From assembly GCA_021772775.1 (NCBI GenBank), contig JAJFLH010000006.1, positions 1-64,000 on the forward strand: DNA of 64,000 nucleotides, in the 5' to 3' direction. Under the pieces are notes generated by a model. The model was given only the letters and a program-made list of their open reading frames with translations, searched no databases and was not told the origin of the DNA. Position numbers and translations under genes: made by a program. Source of the DNA: Mariprofundus sp. GTDB lineage: Bacteria; Pseudomonadota; Zetaproteobacteria; Mariprofundales; Mariprofundaceae. Of the stretch, positions 284-6,065 are shown piece by piece. The first letter of the stretch is position 1. The number at the start of each line of letters is the position of its first letter.

Positions 284-1837
284 TCAAAATTCATATCCTA
301 GAACTAATTTCACACTTCCCTGAGCTGTGGCTGTGGTGAGGCCAAACAGGTAGCCGATTTCATAACTCATGCCGTTACGAAATTTTCCCATGAATACGGG
401 GCCTGCCTGATGAACCTGCTGTACCAGTGGACTCGTATTTCCCACCTCACCTAAGGTGCCGTACATTTCAAAAGCCGGTTCAAGGTAACGTTTCCAGCGC
501 CATCTTGTCTGCCACGCATAGGCAGCAATGGTATTGTTTACGGCATTTGCTCCCAGCTCCTTTTTCAAAATGATGTTGGCGGTATTGATTAAGCGGCCCG
601 TCTCTTTTTCCAATAACAATTTGAATTCAAAGAGATCCGGTTTGTTCAGTGATGACTCAGGTACGATATATTCAACATAGGCTCCTGCATCCAGAAAACG
701 TTCACCCTGTTCAAACAGTTGATAAACATTTTCCCATTTGAAACCCTGATAGGCAAAAGTTTTGTTCGGCCTTTTTCTGAAATCACCTACGATTGCTGTC
801 ATCCAACGATCAGTGACACCATATTCAAATTCAAACTGATGGCGGGCACTGCTATTTTGAGCCGGATCAGCATCAATGGCATAATCCAATAGATATTCAA
901 ATTCGACTTCGCCCTGCTCAACGATAGGTGAATATATTTTCCTAGCTTCAGCATTTGTTGGTAAGATTGATACAGATATACCCACAAGCATCACTGCCGC
1001 AGCTATTACCGCCGCTTTTTGTGGTAATTTCTGAGGTGCTTTTTTCTGCCAGCGAATGGCTGACCAGGTTACCAAAAATAGGCCGACAAATGCTAATACT
1101 TGCATGCCACTAGGCCTGTCATCATACCCCATCAAGGCGTGTAGCAGCTGTCCAACAATGCTGCGTTCTGAAATGATATGGGATGTGTTCCATATGCTAT
1201 GACCCAGGGCGGGTAGTTCATCAATCATCACTAAGTACGATACCCCCTGCGATGCCATGCCCGCAGCCAACAGAACAATCAAAAATGTTATAACTGAAAA
1301 CACATGCCGAATCGGCAATTTAATCAAGCTGCGATACAGCACCAGAGCCACCATGACGCCGGACAGAAGGCCAATGGCTGCTCCGCTTAACATGGTTAGA
1401 GTTCCAGCTTCGCCAGATGCCGCTACGCCATGTAAGAATAGAACAAGCTCTGAACCTTCCCTGGCCACCGCTAATGCTACGACCGTTGCCAAAATCATAG
1501 GGGCTGAGGAGTTATCATTGTCTGCCTGACACACCTGTTTAATACGCGCCGATATTTCACGCCCATGTTTACCCATCCATATTGCGGTCCAACTCATCAA
1601 TAGAGCAGCCGATAACAGTACCGTTGCATTGAAAAGCTCTTGTCCCATGCCTTGCATCGACTCAGCAATCAGGTCGGCAAACAGGGCCACGATCAGGGCT
1701 ATGATCAGGCCTGTGAACATACCAGCATAGATCCAACGGCTGCTGATATTCACTTCCCGGGCTGCTGCTGTTGCAATACCGACAACGAGCATAGCCTCTA
1801 ATACTTCACGAAATACGATAATGAGTGTGGATAACAT
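284..1837 (-). CDS. FTR1-family iron permease fused to a C-terminal beta-barrel-like domain
   Basis: Residues 1-270 form a multi-pass FTR1 iron permease. It has the two acidic signatures of the family, seen here as REVLE (10-14, with Val where Gly is usual) and REGSE (126-130). Family knowledge predicts high-affinity iron uptake across the inner membrane. Residues 271-298 then look like an internal signal peptide: lysines, a hydrophobic AVIAAAVMLVGISVSIL core and an NAEA cleavage-type end. Residues 299-517 are rich in alternating aromatic/hydrophobic strands and end in Phe (VLGYEF), as outer-membrane barrels do. No in-frame stop or ATG separates the halves at the junction. The gene lies 13 bases downstream of the cupredoxin gene and probably shares its Fur-controlled promoter. 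The FTR1 part is near certain; the barrel reading of the C-terminus is inference. A sequencing error joining two genes is possible but would require the loss of a stop. Confidence 0.85.
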   Translation of the reverse strand: MLSTLIIVFREVLEAMLVVGIATAAAREVNISSRWIYAGMFTGLIIALIVALFADLIAESMQGMGQELFNATVLLSAALLMSWTAIWMGKHGREISARIKQVCQADNDNSSAPMILATVVALAVAREGSELVLFLHGVAASGEAGTLTMLSGAAIGLLSGVMVALVLYRSLIKLPIRHVFSVITFLIVLLAAGMASQGVSYLVMIDELPALGHSIWNTSHIISERSIVGQLLHALMGYDDRPSGMQVLAFVGLFLVTWSAIRWQKKAPQKLPQKAAVIAAAVMLVGISVSILPTNAEARKIYSPIVEQGEVEFEYLLDYAIDADPAQNSSARHQFEFEYGVTDRWMTAIVGDFRKRPNKTFAYQGFKWENVYQLFEQGERFLDAGAYVEYIVPESSLNKPDLFEFKLLLEKETGRLINTANIILKKELGANAVNNTIAAYAWQTRWRWKRYLEPAFEMYGTLGEVGNTSPLVQQVHQAGPVFMGKFRNGMSYEIGYLFGLTTATAQGSVKLVLGYEF

Positions 1838-1850
1838 TATATCCCCCCCC

Positions 1851-2207
1851 TTATTTCACGATCAGACGGCCCTGAGCCGTCGCTTCATTGAATTCACCAA
1901 AGAAGGGGTAAGTGCCTGCATCTAGTGGCGGCAAAAAAACGGTGATTTTTGAATTGCCCGCCACAATTTTTTCACGATTGAGTTCATAGCTTTCAAACTC
2001 TTCCGGCGTAGCATCTTTGTTGATGACGATTAGCCGGTGTTTTTCACCTGCTGTCACTTCTAATTGCTCAGGGATGAAGTGGTGGTTCTCAATCTTCACT
2101 TCATATTGAGCTGCGGTAGCCAGGCCGGCTAAGCCCATGGTGCAATATAAAGCCGAGCAGCAAGTAATAGTTTTTAAAATATTAGTTTTAGTGCTATTTA
2201 CAGTCAT
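1851..2207 (-). CDS. Periplasmic cupredoxin-like protein paired with FTR1 permease
   Basis: A 118-residue protein with a signal peptide (hydrophobic stretch ending GLATAA) followed by a small all-beta domain. It has motifs seen in cupredoxin-like partners of iron permeases: a YEVKIENHHFIPEQLEV opening, PEEFES in the middle and a GTYPFFGEFNEATAQG loop near the end. The usual copper-binding Cys is absent from this loop, so it may bind iron or be an electron or metal chaperone rather than a blue copper protein. I chose the ATG at 2207 over one 12 bases upstream because GGAG (2214-2217) lies 6 bases before it, while the upstream ATG has no ribosome site. It is first in a two-gene unit with the FTR1 fusion. 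It is probably expressed under iron limitation, given the Fur boxes immediately upstream. The exact metal and redox role is not visible. Confidence 0.8.
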   Translation of the reverse strand: MTVNSTKTNILKTITCCSALYCTMGLAGLATAAQYEVKIENHHFIPEQLEVTAGEKHRLIVINKDATPEEFESYELNREKIVAGNSKITVFLPPLDAGTYPFFGEFNEATAQGRLIVK

Positions 2208-2227
2208 GATTGTCTCCATGGCAGAGA

Positions 2228-2383: not shown

Positions 2384-2701
2384 ATGAGTTTAGTACCAAT
2401 ATTCAAAGGTCTATCTGATCCTGTAAGGCTTCGCATTGCGCATCTTCTAGCTCAAAAAAAGGAGCTTTGTGTCTGCCATATTACGGATGCCCTATCGCTA
2501 CCCCAAAGCACGGTTTCCCGTCACCTGAATACCTTGAAGAACTGCGGCCTGGTGCTAGCAGAGCGCAGAGGGAAATGGGTCTATTATAATATGGCCCGCA
2601 CTGATGAGATTACAGCGATTGCTGATATGATTACAAACAGCGCCGTCTCTGATCAGCTGCTACAAGCAGATCTGGCCAATCTAAAAGAATCGACCTGCTA
2701 A
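2384..2701 (+). CDS. arsR: ArsR/SmtB-family arsenical repressor
   Basis: A 105-residue winged-helix regulator. The N-terminal FKGLSDPVRLRIAHLL helix is typical of the family. ELCVCHI (about residues 27-33) carries the Cys-x-Cys pair used by ArsR proteins to sense arsenite. The recognition helix region reads SLPQSTVSRHLNTLKNCGLV and the wing ERRGKWVYY. A further Cys is the last residue. It is the first gene of an arsR-acr3-gapdh-arsJ run, so an arsenic-responsive repressor is the natural reading. No clear Shine-Dalgarno precedes the ATG. The candidate operator is not in front of arsR but in the arsR-acr3 gap. Confidence 0.93.
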   Translation: MSLVPIFKGLSDPVRLRIAHLLAQKKELCVCHITDALSLPQSTVSRHLNTLKNCGLVLAERRGKWVYYNMARTDEITAIADMITNSAVSDQLLQADLANLKESTC

Positions 2702-2729
2702 TTTACATATCCGCATAAGCGGATATAAT
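2702..2729 (+). promoter_or_regulatory. Promoter with overlapping palindromic operator between arsR and acr3
   Basis: Immediately after the arsR stop codon there is a -35-like TTTACA (2702-2707), a 16-bp spacer and a perfect TATAAT (2724-2729). A perfect 8-bp inverted repeat, ATATCCGC (2707-2714) and GCGGATAT (2719-2726), fills the spacer and runs into the -10. That is where a repressor would block RNA polymerase. An ArsR site is the obvious candidate. The same element could also fold as an RNA hairpin in an arsR read-through transcript. Confidence 0.6.
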
Positions 2730-2752
2730 AGTCTCCTGTTCTGGAGGTCTGC

Positions 2753-3790
2753 ATGCCTGAATTAAAATCAATAGGACTATTTGCCCGCTTTTTAACGCTG
2801 TGGGTCTTTGTTGCCATTGTTGCGGGCATAGCTCTTGGTGCCTTGATGCCTGAATTTTTTCAGATGATTGGTAGTATTGAACTGGCACACATCAATTTAC
2901 CTGTTGCGATGTTGGTTTGGGTGATGATTTTGCCGATGTTGCTCAAAATTGATTTCACTTCCCTGCATGAAGTTTGGAATCAACGGCGCGGCATTGCGGT
3001 TACCCTTGGTGTTAACTGGTTGTTCAAACCATTCTTCATGGCTCTTCTGGGATATATCTCTGTTTATCATCTGTTCGCTTCTTTTCTTGATGCAAGGATG
3101 CTGGATGGTTACTTCGCAGGCTTAGTGATTTTAGCCGCAGCGCCATGTACGGCGATGGTTTTTGTCTGGTCGAAATTGACCCAGGGTGATGCCCAGTTCA
3201 CGCTTTCTCAAGTGGCACTCAATGATGTGGTAATGGTCTTTGCCTTTGCACCGATTGTCGCTCTGCTGCTTGGTTTTGCTTCGGTCACTGTTCCCTGGGA
3301 TACATTGTTGCTTTCGGTTCTACTCTACATTTTAGCACCTGTTCTGGTGGCATATGGCTGGAGAAAACATCTGCTCAAGCAGGGGGCACTTGATGTTGTC
3401 TTGCAGCGCCTTGATCCTCTGTCTATGGCAGCACTACTACTTACTGTGGTGTTGCTATTCGCCTTTCAGGGGCAGGAGATTCTGCAACAGCCTTTGGTGA
3501 TTGCCATCCTGGCAGTGCCGATTGTGATACAGGTGTATACAACTTTTGGCTTGGCCTATCTATTAAACCGTAAGCTTGGAGTACAGCATAATGTCGCTGC
3601 ACCATCTGCCTTGATTGGTGCATCAAACTTCTTCGAACTGGCTGTAGCAACGGCAATTGCACTGTTTGGTTTTGAATCTGGAGCGGCATTGGCAACAGTG
3701 GTTGGCGTGCTGGTAGAAGTGCCTGTGATGTTAACGTTGGTGTCCATCGTGAACCGGAGTAGAGGCTGGTATGAAAAGGGCCTCAAGTAA
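2753..3790 (+). CDS. acr3: Acr3-family arsenite efflux permease
   Basis: A 345-residue membrane protein with about ten hydrophobic segments and the Acr3 hallmarks. The conserved cysteine lies in AAAPCTAMVFVWS in the fourth helix region, and the glutamate sits in the ASNFFELAVA segment. Acr3 exports As(III) as an antiporter at the inner membrane. GGAGG at 2741-2745 lies 7 bases before the ATG. It follows arsR with a promoter-like element in the gap and precedes the GAPDH/ArsJ pair, so arsenite and arseno-phosphoglycerate efflux are likely co-regulated. Length and motifs are ordinary for the family; alternative assignment is unlikely. Confidence 0.95.
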   Translation: MPELKSIGLFARFLTLWVFVAIVAGIALGALMPEFFQMIGSIELAHINLPVAMLVWVMILPMLLKIDFTSLHEVWNQRRGIAVTLGVNWLFKPFFMALLGYISVYHLFASFLDARMLDGYFAGLVILAAAPCTAMVFVWSKLTQGDAQFTLSQVALNDVVMVFAFAPIVALLLGFASVTVPWDTLLLSVLLYILAPVLVAYGWRKHLLKQGALDVVLQRLDPLSMAALLLTVVLLFAFQGQEILQQPLVIAILAVPIVIQVYTTFGLAYLLNRKLGVQHNVAAPSALIGASNFFELAVATAIALFGFESGAALATVVGVLVEVPVMLTLVSIVNRSRGWYEKGLK

Positions 3791-3853
3791 GGGTATAGAG
3801 CAGTAACCGCATCCGAATCTGGATTGCAGCATAGATAAGCAGGGGGGTGAATA

Positions 3854-4858
3854 GTGAGTATTCGAGTTGGAATTAATGGGTTTGGCAGGATGGGTAGGCT
3901 TGGTTTCCGGGCAGCATGGGATTATACAGAACTGGACCTCGTCCAGATTAATGAAATTTCTGGTGATGCGACATGCTCTGCGCATCTGCTGAAATTTGAT
4001 TCGGTTCATGGTCGTTGGGATAAGAATTGTTCTGCTGAAGATGGGAATATGATTGTCGATGGTCAATCAATCTCTTATTCCATGCATAAAAGCATCGCAG
4101 ATACCGATTGGTCAGGTTGCGATATTGTCATTGAATCATCGGGTAAATTCAGAACGCCTGAACTGCTGCAGCCCTACTTCGATCAAGGGGTGAAAAAAGT
4201 CATTGTTGCAGCACCTGTCAAAGATGGGGCGTTGAATATTGTCATGGGTGTGAATGACCACCTCTACAATGTGGACGAACATCATCTACTGACTGCCGCC
4301 TCTTGCACCACCAACTGTCTGGCTCCTGTGGTGAAAGTGATCAATGAGAAGATCGGTATCAAACATGGCTGTATGACCACCATCCATAATATCACCAATA
4401 CCCAAACCATTATCGATAAAGGCCATGCTGATCTGCGTCGTGCTCGTGCCTGTGGTCTATCACTGATTCCAACATCAACAGGCTCTGCCAAAGCCATTAC
4501 CCAAATATTTCCGGATTTAAGTGGTAAACTGAATGGTTTAGCGGTGCGTGTACCGCAGCTCAATGCATCGATTACCGATTTTGTCTTTGAAGCGCAACGG
4601 GCAACCACTGCAGAAGAGATTAATGGATTCATCAAAGAAGCATCTGAAGGTGAATTGAAAGGTATCCTTGGTTTTGAAGAGCGGCCTCTGGTTTCGGTGG
4701 ATTATAAAGATGATATCCGCTCAGGCATTGTCGATGCACTCTCCACCATGGTGATTGATGATACGCAGGTAAAACTACTGATCTGGTACGATAATGAAGT
4801 GGGCTATGCCAACCGCATGATGGAATTGGCCCGTAAGGTTGCCAGCAGCATCGCTTAA
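3854..4858 (+). CDS. ArsJ-associated glyceraldehyde-3-phosphate dehydrogenase
   Basis: A 334-residue type I GAPDH with the NAD-binding start [16 protein letters not shown] and the catalytic Cys in [11 protein letters not shown]. The conserved tail is [16 protein letters not shown]. Its start is GTG, preceded by a run of six Gs and GTGA that can serve as ribosome site. In ars operons this GAPDH forms 1-arseno-3-phosphoglycerate from glyceraldehyde 3-phosphate and arsenate, and the product is exported by ArsJ. The adjacent arsJ, four bases downstream of the stop, makes this role much more likely than central glycolysis. The sequence also reads GRMGR rather than GRIGR near the N-terminus, as in the ArsJ-linked subgroup as I recall it. 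Confidence 0.9.
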
Positions 4859-4862
4859 TCGA

Positions 4863-6065
4863 ATGAATCAGCAACTTCATCATTATGCCGTTGTAACTGG
4901 TGGTTATTGGGCATTCACCATCACCGATGGGGCTATTCGCATGCTGGTGGTGCTCTACTTCCATCTCTTGGGTTACAGCCCCTTGGAAGTGGCGATGCTG
5001 TTTCTGTTGTATGAGTTATGCGGTGTATTCACCAATCTGGTGGGCGGCTGGATGGCGGCCCGCATGGGGCTTAATGTGACCATGCATATGGGCATGGCAC
5101 TGCAGGTGATTGCTTTGGCCATGCTGACTGTGCCCGACAGCTGGTTATCGGTGCTTTATGTGATGATGGCTCAGGCCTTAAGCGGTATTGCCAAAGACCT
5201 GAATAAGATGAGTGCAAAAGCCAGTGTGAAACTGCTGGTGCCTAAGGATGCCGAAGCCAAGCTATTCAAGTGGGTGTCGATTTTAACAGGCTCCAAGAAT
5301 GCGCTGAAAGGCGCTGGTTTCTTTATTGGTGCGATCTTACTCGATGCGGTTGGCTTTCGGGCCGCTCTGGGCATTTTAGCCTTGTTGCTGGCCATCGTAC
5401 TGCTGTTGACATGGATCAAATTGCCGAAACAGATGGGCCAGATGAAAAGCAAGGCAAAATTCACTCAGGTCTTTTCTAATAATAGTGCAATCAACTGGCT
5501 CTCCGCCGCTCGCCTGTTTCTGTTTGGCTCCAGAGATGTCTGGTTCACCGTCGCCCTACCGGTATTTCTCTATTCGGTAGTGGGTTGGTCATTCACTCAG
5601 GTGGGCAGTTTTTTTGCCCTGTGGATTATCGGTTACGGATTCATTCAAACGATTGCACCCAAACTGTTATCGCTGGGCTCAAAGCAACACAAGGTTGATC
5701 GCTCGACTGTTGTTGGCTTGGCTGCAGTTTTATCGCTTACACCAATTGCTATTGCGATCGGATTAGACTTCAAGCTCGAACCGAGCCTTCTTCTGATTGC
5801 AGGTCTAGCTATGTTTGGAGTGCTGTTTGCACTGAATTCAGCCGTACACTCTTATCTGATTCTCTCATATGCAGAACGTGACCGTGTATCACTCGATGTT
5901 GGCTTCTACTATATGGCCAATGCCAGCGGTCGACTGTTTGGCACAATTCTGTCCGGTTTAATCTATCAAGAGTGGGGGCTGCAAGCCTGTCTCTACTGCT
6001 CATCAGCAATGATCATCATGGCAACCCTGTTATCGCTTCGCCTACCTTCTGCAACTGCAAAGTAG
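4863..6065 (+). CDS. arsJ: ArsJ organoarsenical efflux MFS transporter
   Basis: A 400-residue major facilitator protein with about twelve membrane segments. The N-terminal VTGGYWAFTITDGAIRMLVV motif is typical of ArsJ, which expels the 1-arseno-3-phosphoglycerate made by the preceding GAPDH. The reading frame could open at a TTG at 4839 inside the GAPDH gene. I prefer ATG 4863 because it gives the usual ArsJ N-terminus and lies just after the GAPDH stop, consistent with translational coupling. It ends the ars operon. No intrinsic terminator is evident in the 59 bases before the convergent kinase gene. Confidence 0.92.
   Translation: MNQQLHHYAVVTGGYWAFTITDGAIRMLVVLYFHLLGYSPLEVAMLFLLYELCGVFTNLVGGWMAARMGLNVTMHMGMALQVIALAMLTVPDSWLSVLYVMMAQALSGIAKDLNKMSAKASVKLLVPKDAEAKLFKWVSILTGSKNALKGAGFFIGAILLDAVGFRAALGILALLLAIVLLLTWIKLPKQMGQMKSKAKFTQVFSNNSAINWLSAARLFLFGSRDVWFTVALPVFLYSVVGWSFTQVGSFFALWIIGYGFIQTIAPKLLSLGSKQHKVDRSTVVGLAAVLSLTPIAIAIGLDFKLEPSLLLIAGLAMFGVLFALNSAVHSYLILSYAERDRVSLDVGFYYMANASGRLFGTILSGLIYQEWGLQACLYCSSAMIIMATLLSLRLPSATAK

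Follow-up and report, generated by a model that had tools for sequence, protein, structure and literature searches.

A Fur-box-preceded operon of Mariprofundus with an FTR1-family permease fused to a probable outer-membrane barrel: a likely polyprotein for ferrous-iron uptake

The iron operon and its fused gene

The window analysed here is a stretch of 64,000 nucleotides from a Mariprofundus sp. contig. Near one edge of it, on the minus strand, lie a small cupredoxin gene and a gene that joins an iron permease to a barrel-like domain. The features of this region are as follows.

284-1837, minus strand: fused gene for an FTR1 permease, an internal signal peptide and a probable outer-membrane barrel; a single open frame, with the fusion kept in relatives
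1055-1837, minus strand: FTR1-family permease domain, residues 1-261
1796-1810, minus strand: first RExxE iron motif, REVLE, residues 10-14
1448-1462, minus strand: second RExxE iron motif, REGSE, residues 126-130
1016-1054, minus strand: linker RWQKKAPQKLPQK, residues 262-274, basic (five Lys/Arg, no acidic residue) and predicted to be cytoplasmic, corresponding to the n-region of a signal peptide
944-1015, minus strand: internal signal peptide, with its core at residues 275-293 (Kyte-Doolittle 2.38) and its c-region running to NAEA (residue 298)
287-943, minus strand: residues 299-517, with GYEF at the end, predicted to form the mature outer-membrane beta-barrel (from AlphaFold2, Foldseek, the terminal Phe and strand alternation)
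1851-2219, minus strand: FtrB/EfeO-type cupredoxin gene, 13 bp upstream of the fused gene and in the same operon
2224-2270, no strand assigned: cluster of overlapping Fur boxes (2224-2242, 2230-2248 and 2252-2270), with one to three mismatches to the 19-bp consensus

The fused gene is one frame of 517 codons with an ATG start and no internal stop, and the protein reads from FTR1 through the basic linker and the signal peptide to a domain of 219 residues whose last residue is Phe. The original prediction had proposed just such a one-frame fusion, with an inner-membrane permease at the N-terminus and an internal signal peptide ending in NAEA; each of these parts is supported by the evidence below, and the strand, which it did not give, is the minus strand.

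The permease domain is a complete seven-helix protein. Pfam FTR1 (PF03239) matches residues 1-283 at 4.4e-32 (112 bits against a cut-off of 25.3), hydropathy gives seven hydrophobic segments, and both RExxE motifs expected of an FTR1 protein are present. The score against the EfeU equivalog model NF041756 is 135.4 bits, below its cut-off of 255. The valine of the first motif had been singled out as a departure from the usual glycine. REVLE is indeed found at residues 10-14, but it is not unusual, as relatives carry REVLE, REALE, REILE, REMLE or REIIE and the first two of these are common; it was therefore set aside as an anomaly. Lys and Arg residues in alternate loops number 2, 4, 3 and 5 on one side (14 in sum) and 0, 0 and 2 on the other (2 in sum), which by the positive-inside rule places the N-terminus outside and the C-terminus inside. 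The basic linker would thus be cytoplasmic and the signal peptide correctly oriented.

The gene upstream encodes a cupredoxin (Cupredoxin_1, 2.4e-26) that is related to the EfeO-type cupredoxin of PDB 8vuk (3e-13) and retains a Glu-rich EEFES...NREK stretch. Brucella FtrB binds copper through Asp118, and cluster III proteins have Gly in place of this residue (PMC11966278); the cupredoxin of the window likewise has Gly at the apparent site, as judged by alignment to 8vuk. The Fur boxes lie ahead of the cupredoxin gene, and five matches to the Fur consensus were observed in the window, where 0.03 would be expected. Fur boxes likewise stand before most of the other fused operons in Mariprofundus; none was found upstream of the fused operon of one genome (G027), in which a FUR gene lies directly upstream. 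The genes flanking the fused operon differ among genomes, indicating that the iron unit consists of two genes. FtrA/P19 (PF10634) had no match in the whole genome. No FtrD ferredoxin was found in the operon, where the window offers only 283 bp downstream before the contig ends, and the flanking genes at three related loci (L031, L054 and L087) are unrelated ones. Divergent from the iron operon, at 2384-6065 on the plus strand, are genes for an ArsR-type regulator, an SBF-family (Acr3-like) transporter, GAPDH and an MFS transporter; together they resemble the gene sets for arsenic resistance of GAPDH-ArsJ type.

The internal signal peptide

The linker of the fused proteins can be aligned, column by column, with the signal peptides at the N-terminus of free-standing barrels. 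In the protein of the window, the c-region reads ...ILPTNAEA, with a predicted signal peptidase I site between residues 298 and 299, and the features of a signal peptidase I substrate are all present: a basic n-region, a hydrophobic core, small residues at -3 and -1 and an n-in orientation. An [A/S/T]-x-A site occurs at each of the 18 distinct fused junctions: residue -1 is invariably Ala and residue -3 is Ala, Ser or Thr, whereas position -2 and the hydrophobic core vary freely. The cleavage-site column is the same as that of the free-standing barrels, shifted by one residue in the Dadabacteria group. Judged by these features of the sequence, the fused protein is probably cut in two by signal peptidase I.

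An alternative is that the protein stays uncut, with the barrel tethered to the inner membrane or the two membranes bridged by one chain. The signal segment is hydrophobic enough to serve as an eighth transmembrane helix, as this would require. Against it, the cleavage motif is kept in 18 of 18 fused proteins though adjacent residues drift, and in relatives in which the module is split the barrel is a separate protein. The geometry of a bridge is also unfavourable. The periplasm is typically 150-200 Å wide, and in the AlphaFold2 model about 12 residues, at most ~42 Å when extended, separate the predicted cut site from the first strand, too few to span that distance in an uncut chain. We therefore regard an uncut protein as unlikely.

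The C-terminal domain

Searched alone, the C-terminal domain had no match in Pfam, NCBIfam or the PDB sequences above sub-threshold noise, so that the profile half of the check proposed with the original prediction gave no family. An AlphaFold2 model built from a five-row alignment of the window and related-locus sequences has 12 strands (pLDDT 68.8, pTM 0.56), with other models scoring lower; the model of the full-length protein was poor (pLDDT 40.7) and adds no support. When the barrel model was compared with the PDB by Foldseek, the best matches were nearly all membrane barrels, with OmpG at the top (E 4.6e-3, TM about 0.5) and FapF, OmpC and other outer-membrane barrels also matched, at E-values of only ~0.005.

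The sequences of the family point the same way. The protein of the window ends ...VLGYEF, and 48 of the 59 homologues with a complete end have a C-terminal Phe, as expected of the aromatic beta-signal of outer-membrane proteins, with Leu or Tyr in another 8. Positions -1, -3, -5, -7 and -9 are hydrophobic in 85-95% of them, and the residues between are mostly polar or charged. Averaged over the family, the hydropathy alternation along the predicted strands is 2.42, against 1.13 +/- 0.24 in shuffled sequences, none of which reached the observed value in 5000 trials; in the sequence of the window taken alone the alternation was not significant (p 0.24).

These data are to be weighed against the reading of the domain as a soluble periplasmic beta-domain, for example one that binds iron. 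The domain of the window has no confident family match and the confidence of its model is moderate, both of which would fit a soluble domain. The terminal Phe, the family-wide alternation and the fold matches to membrane barrels argue against it, as do weak matches of a few distant relatives to the outer-membrane barrel families OMP_b-brl and Phenol_MetA_deg. A soluble C-terminus is thus quite improbable, and the domain is very probably an outer-membrane barrel, as the original prediction had suggested.

Translation and conservation of the fused gene

Synthesis of the barrel, wholly or in part, from a start codon inside the fused gene would also yield a free barrel and would do so without cleavage. 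Most Mariprofundus genes have a GTG or ATG near -16/-15 relative to the cut site. These codons lack a good Shine-Dalgarno sequence upstream, are not conserved at that place at two loci (L009 and L034) and lie inside the hydrophobic core, so that the product would have a signal peptide lacking its basic n-region. With no conserved start and usable ribosome-binding site before the core, an internal start was rejected as highly improbable, and cleavage is the likely route by which the barrel is freed.

The fusion itself is widely conserved. A search of relatives with the whole protein returned uninterrupted, full-length fused homologues in eight other Mariprofundaceae genomes at 52-78% identity (67-78% within the genus and about 53% in another genus). 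A class-wide search of 78 genomes found the complete fused gene in 10 Mariprofundaceae genomes, the window counted; in another genome (G255) the gene is broken by a contig end near the C-terminus, and in two more (G017 and G018) it also meets contig ends. In none of the genomes of the class covered by this search were FTR1 and the barrel found as separate neighbouring genes. Beyond the class, the fusion occurs in one further family of Proteobacteria (three genomes, G370, G399 and G408) and in four genomes (G421, G431, G432 and G443) of the phylum of a Candidatus Dadabacteria MAG. A joining of two genes by assembly error, or a pseudogene, had to be considered in view of the mere 283 bases between the fused gene and the end of its contig (C36), but it has a negligible probability and was rejected, as independent assemblies, including that of the isolate Mariprofundus sp. 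EBB-1, share the fusion with no stops and both domains conserved. The junction frame is kept across these relatives, which disposes of the concern, raised with the original prediction, that a frameshift or missed stop had joined the two parts or that this assembly alone carried them fused.

Split relatives

In Alteromonas and Pseudoalteromonas the module consists of three successive genes, for a cupredoxin, an FTR1-like permease and a barrel, and the permease and barrel genes overlap by 4 bp in Alteromonas and 13 bp in Pseudoalteromonas. The split barrels begin with a signal peptide of their own, which in the alignment takes the place of the fused linker. Altogether, 64 distinct barrel homologues were found, of which 18 are fused, 17 are separate but beside FTR1 and 29 stand apart from FTR1, five of these last having a cupredoxin neighbour. 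Almost all relatives, whether fused or split, have a cupredoxin gene upstream, and the alternative order of cupredoxin, barrel and FTR1 is seen at one locus (L092) and in one genome (G402).

Several of these relatives have features of their own. The Alteromonas-type split operons (L036, L037, L040, L083, L084, L090 and L094-L098) encode an FTR1-like protein that has lost both RExxE motifs and may no longer be an iron permease; no Fur boxes were found in this group, and in the annotated plasmid cases the FTR1-like gene comes after genes for a two-component system and for a cupredoxin. An in-frame TAG interrupts the FTR1-adjacent barrel gene of Hydrogenophaga sp. PBL-H3 and one further genome (G055), in identical copies (L035, 6890-7720; L038; L039). 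Barrel and cupredoxin genes without an adjoining FTR1 gene (L052, L088, L100, L119 and L121) suggest that this pair is a unit of its own. Near the fused Mariprofundus clade, two genomes have stand-alone barrels (L012/L042 in G022 and L013/L041 in G003), each with an N-terminal signal peptide, and these are possible products of gene fission.

In both the barrel tree and the FTR1 tree, the fused proteins fall into three separate clades, with split or unlinked proteins interspersed among them. The branches with strong support, taken alone, require at least four state changes in the barrel tree and at least six in the FTR1 tree, some of which may stem from genes cut by contig ends. This pattern implies either that fusion and separation have both occurred or that fused genes have moved between lineages; the direction of change, gain or loss of the fusion, is beyond the reach of these trees.

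A model for the operon

It is likely that the locus is a Fur-controlled operon for ferrous-iron uptake, in which a single polyprotein contains the permease and the barrel and is cleaved by signal peptidase to separate them. This reading draws on the fusion, its conservation, the gene order, the Fur boxes and the signal-peptide features. Fur would repress the two genes. The first would supply a periplasmic FtrB-like cupredoxin and the second the polyprotein, whose N-terminal part would fold as a seven-helix FTR1 permease in the inner membrane with its C-terminus in the cytoplasm. The basic stretch and hydrophobic segment that follow would act as a Sec signal peptide in mid-protein and send the remaining chain to the periplasm, where signal peptidase I would cut after Ala298. 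The freed domain of 219 residues would then be passed to the Bam machinery and inserted as the predicted 12-stranded barrel in the outer membrane, probably a small channel giving iron access to the cupredoxin and permease, and, through the fusion, an inner-membrane protein and an outer-membrane protein would be synthesised in a one-to-one ratio. It is the gene order and the fusion partners that point to an iron-channel role. Barrels that stand beside a cupredoxin without FTR1, or alone, indicate that this role need not be specific to FTR1, and the barrel may work for the cupredoxin no less than for the permease. On the broader scale, we think it reasonably probable that polyproteins in three separate groups give rise to inner- and outer-membrane products by way of a cleaved internal signal peptide, and that their barrels represent an unnamed family of outer-membrane proteins devoted to iron uptake through cupredoxin and FTR1.

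Gene order, gene overlap and repeated fusion link this unnamed family to FTR1/cupredoxin uptake, and the fusion is a natural example of a polytopic inner-membrane protein within whose chain lies the signal peptide of an outer-membrane protein. The gene permits a direct test of how one chain destined for two membranes is handled by Sec, signal peptidase and Bam. Its hosts in the Zetaproteobacteria are iron oxidisers, in which iron uptake must stay apart from iron respiration.

Comparison with known systems

Our search of the literature found no description of an FTR1-barrel fusion or its operon, of any fusion between a permease and an outer-membrane barrel, or of the barrel family of the window, and no dedicated outer-membrane partner for FTR1/cupredoxin ferrous-iron uptake. 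Nearest in composition are FtrABCD and FtrB-FtrC of Brucella and Bordetella, in which an FTR1-type inner-membrane permease and an FtrB-like cupredoxin share one operon (PMC11966278). Unlike FtrABCD, the genome of the window lacks FtrA/P19, its permease is fused to a probable outer-membrane barrel, and its cupredoxin has Gly for the copper-binding Asp118. EfeUOB shares the FTR1/EfeU permease, and fusions of this permease are known, as a few EfeO-family proteins carry an N-terminal fused EfeU domain (PMC3143127). There, however, the permease is joined to a periplasmic domain, whereas in the window it is joined to a probable outer-membrane barrel; moreover, the two-gene unit has neither EfeB nor EfeO and its permease falls below the EfeU equivalog cut-off. 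The split cupredoxin-FTR1-barrel operons of the Alteromonadaceae and others found here have homologous genes in the same order with overlapping frames, but the genes are separate, and the Alteromonas-type group has no Fur boxes and has lost both RExxE motifs. The closest parallel for the proposed processing is the FbcH cytochrome b/c1 polyprotein of Bradyrhizobium, in which a polytopic inner-membrane protein is followed by an internal signal peptide and a product released by signal peptidase. Both FbcH products, however, reside at the inner membrane, whereas the second product of the fused gene would be an outer-membrane barrel.
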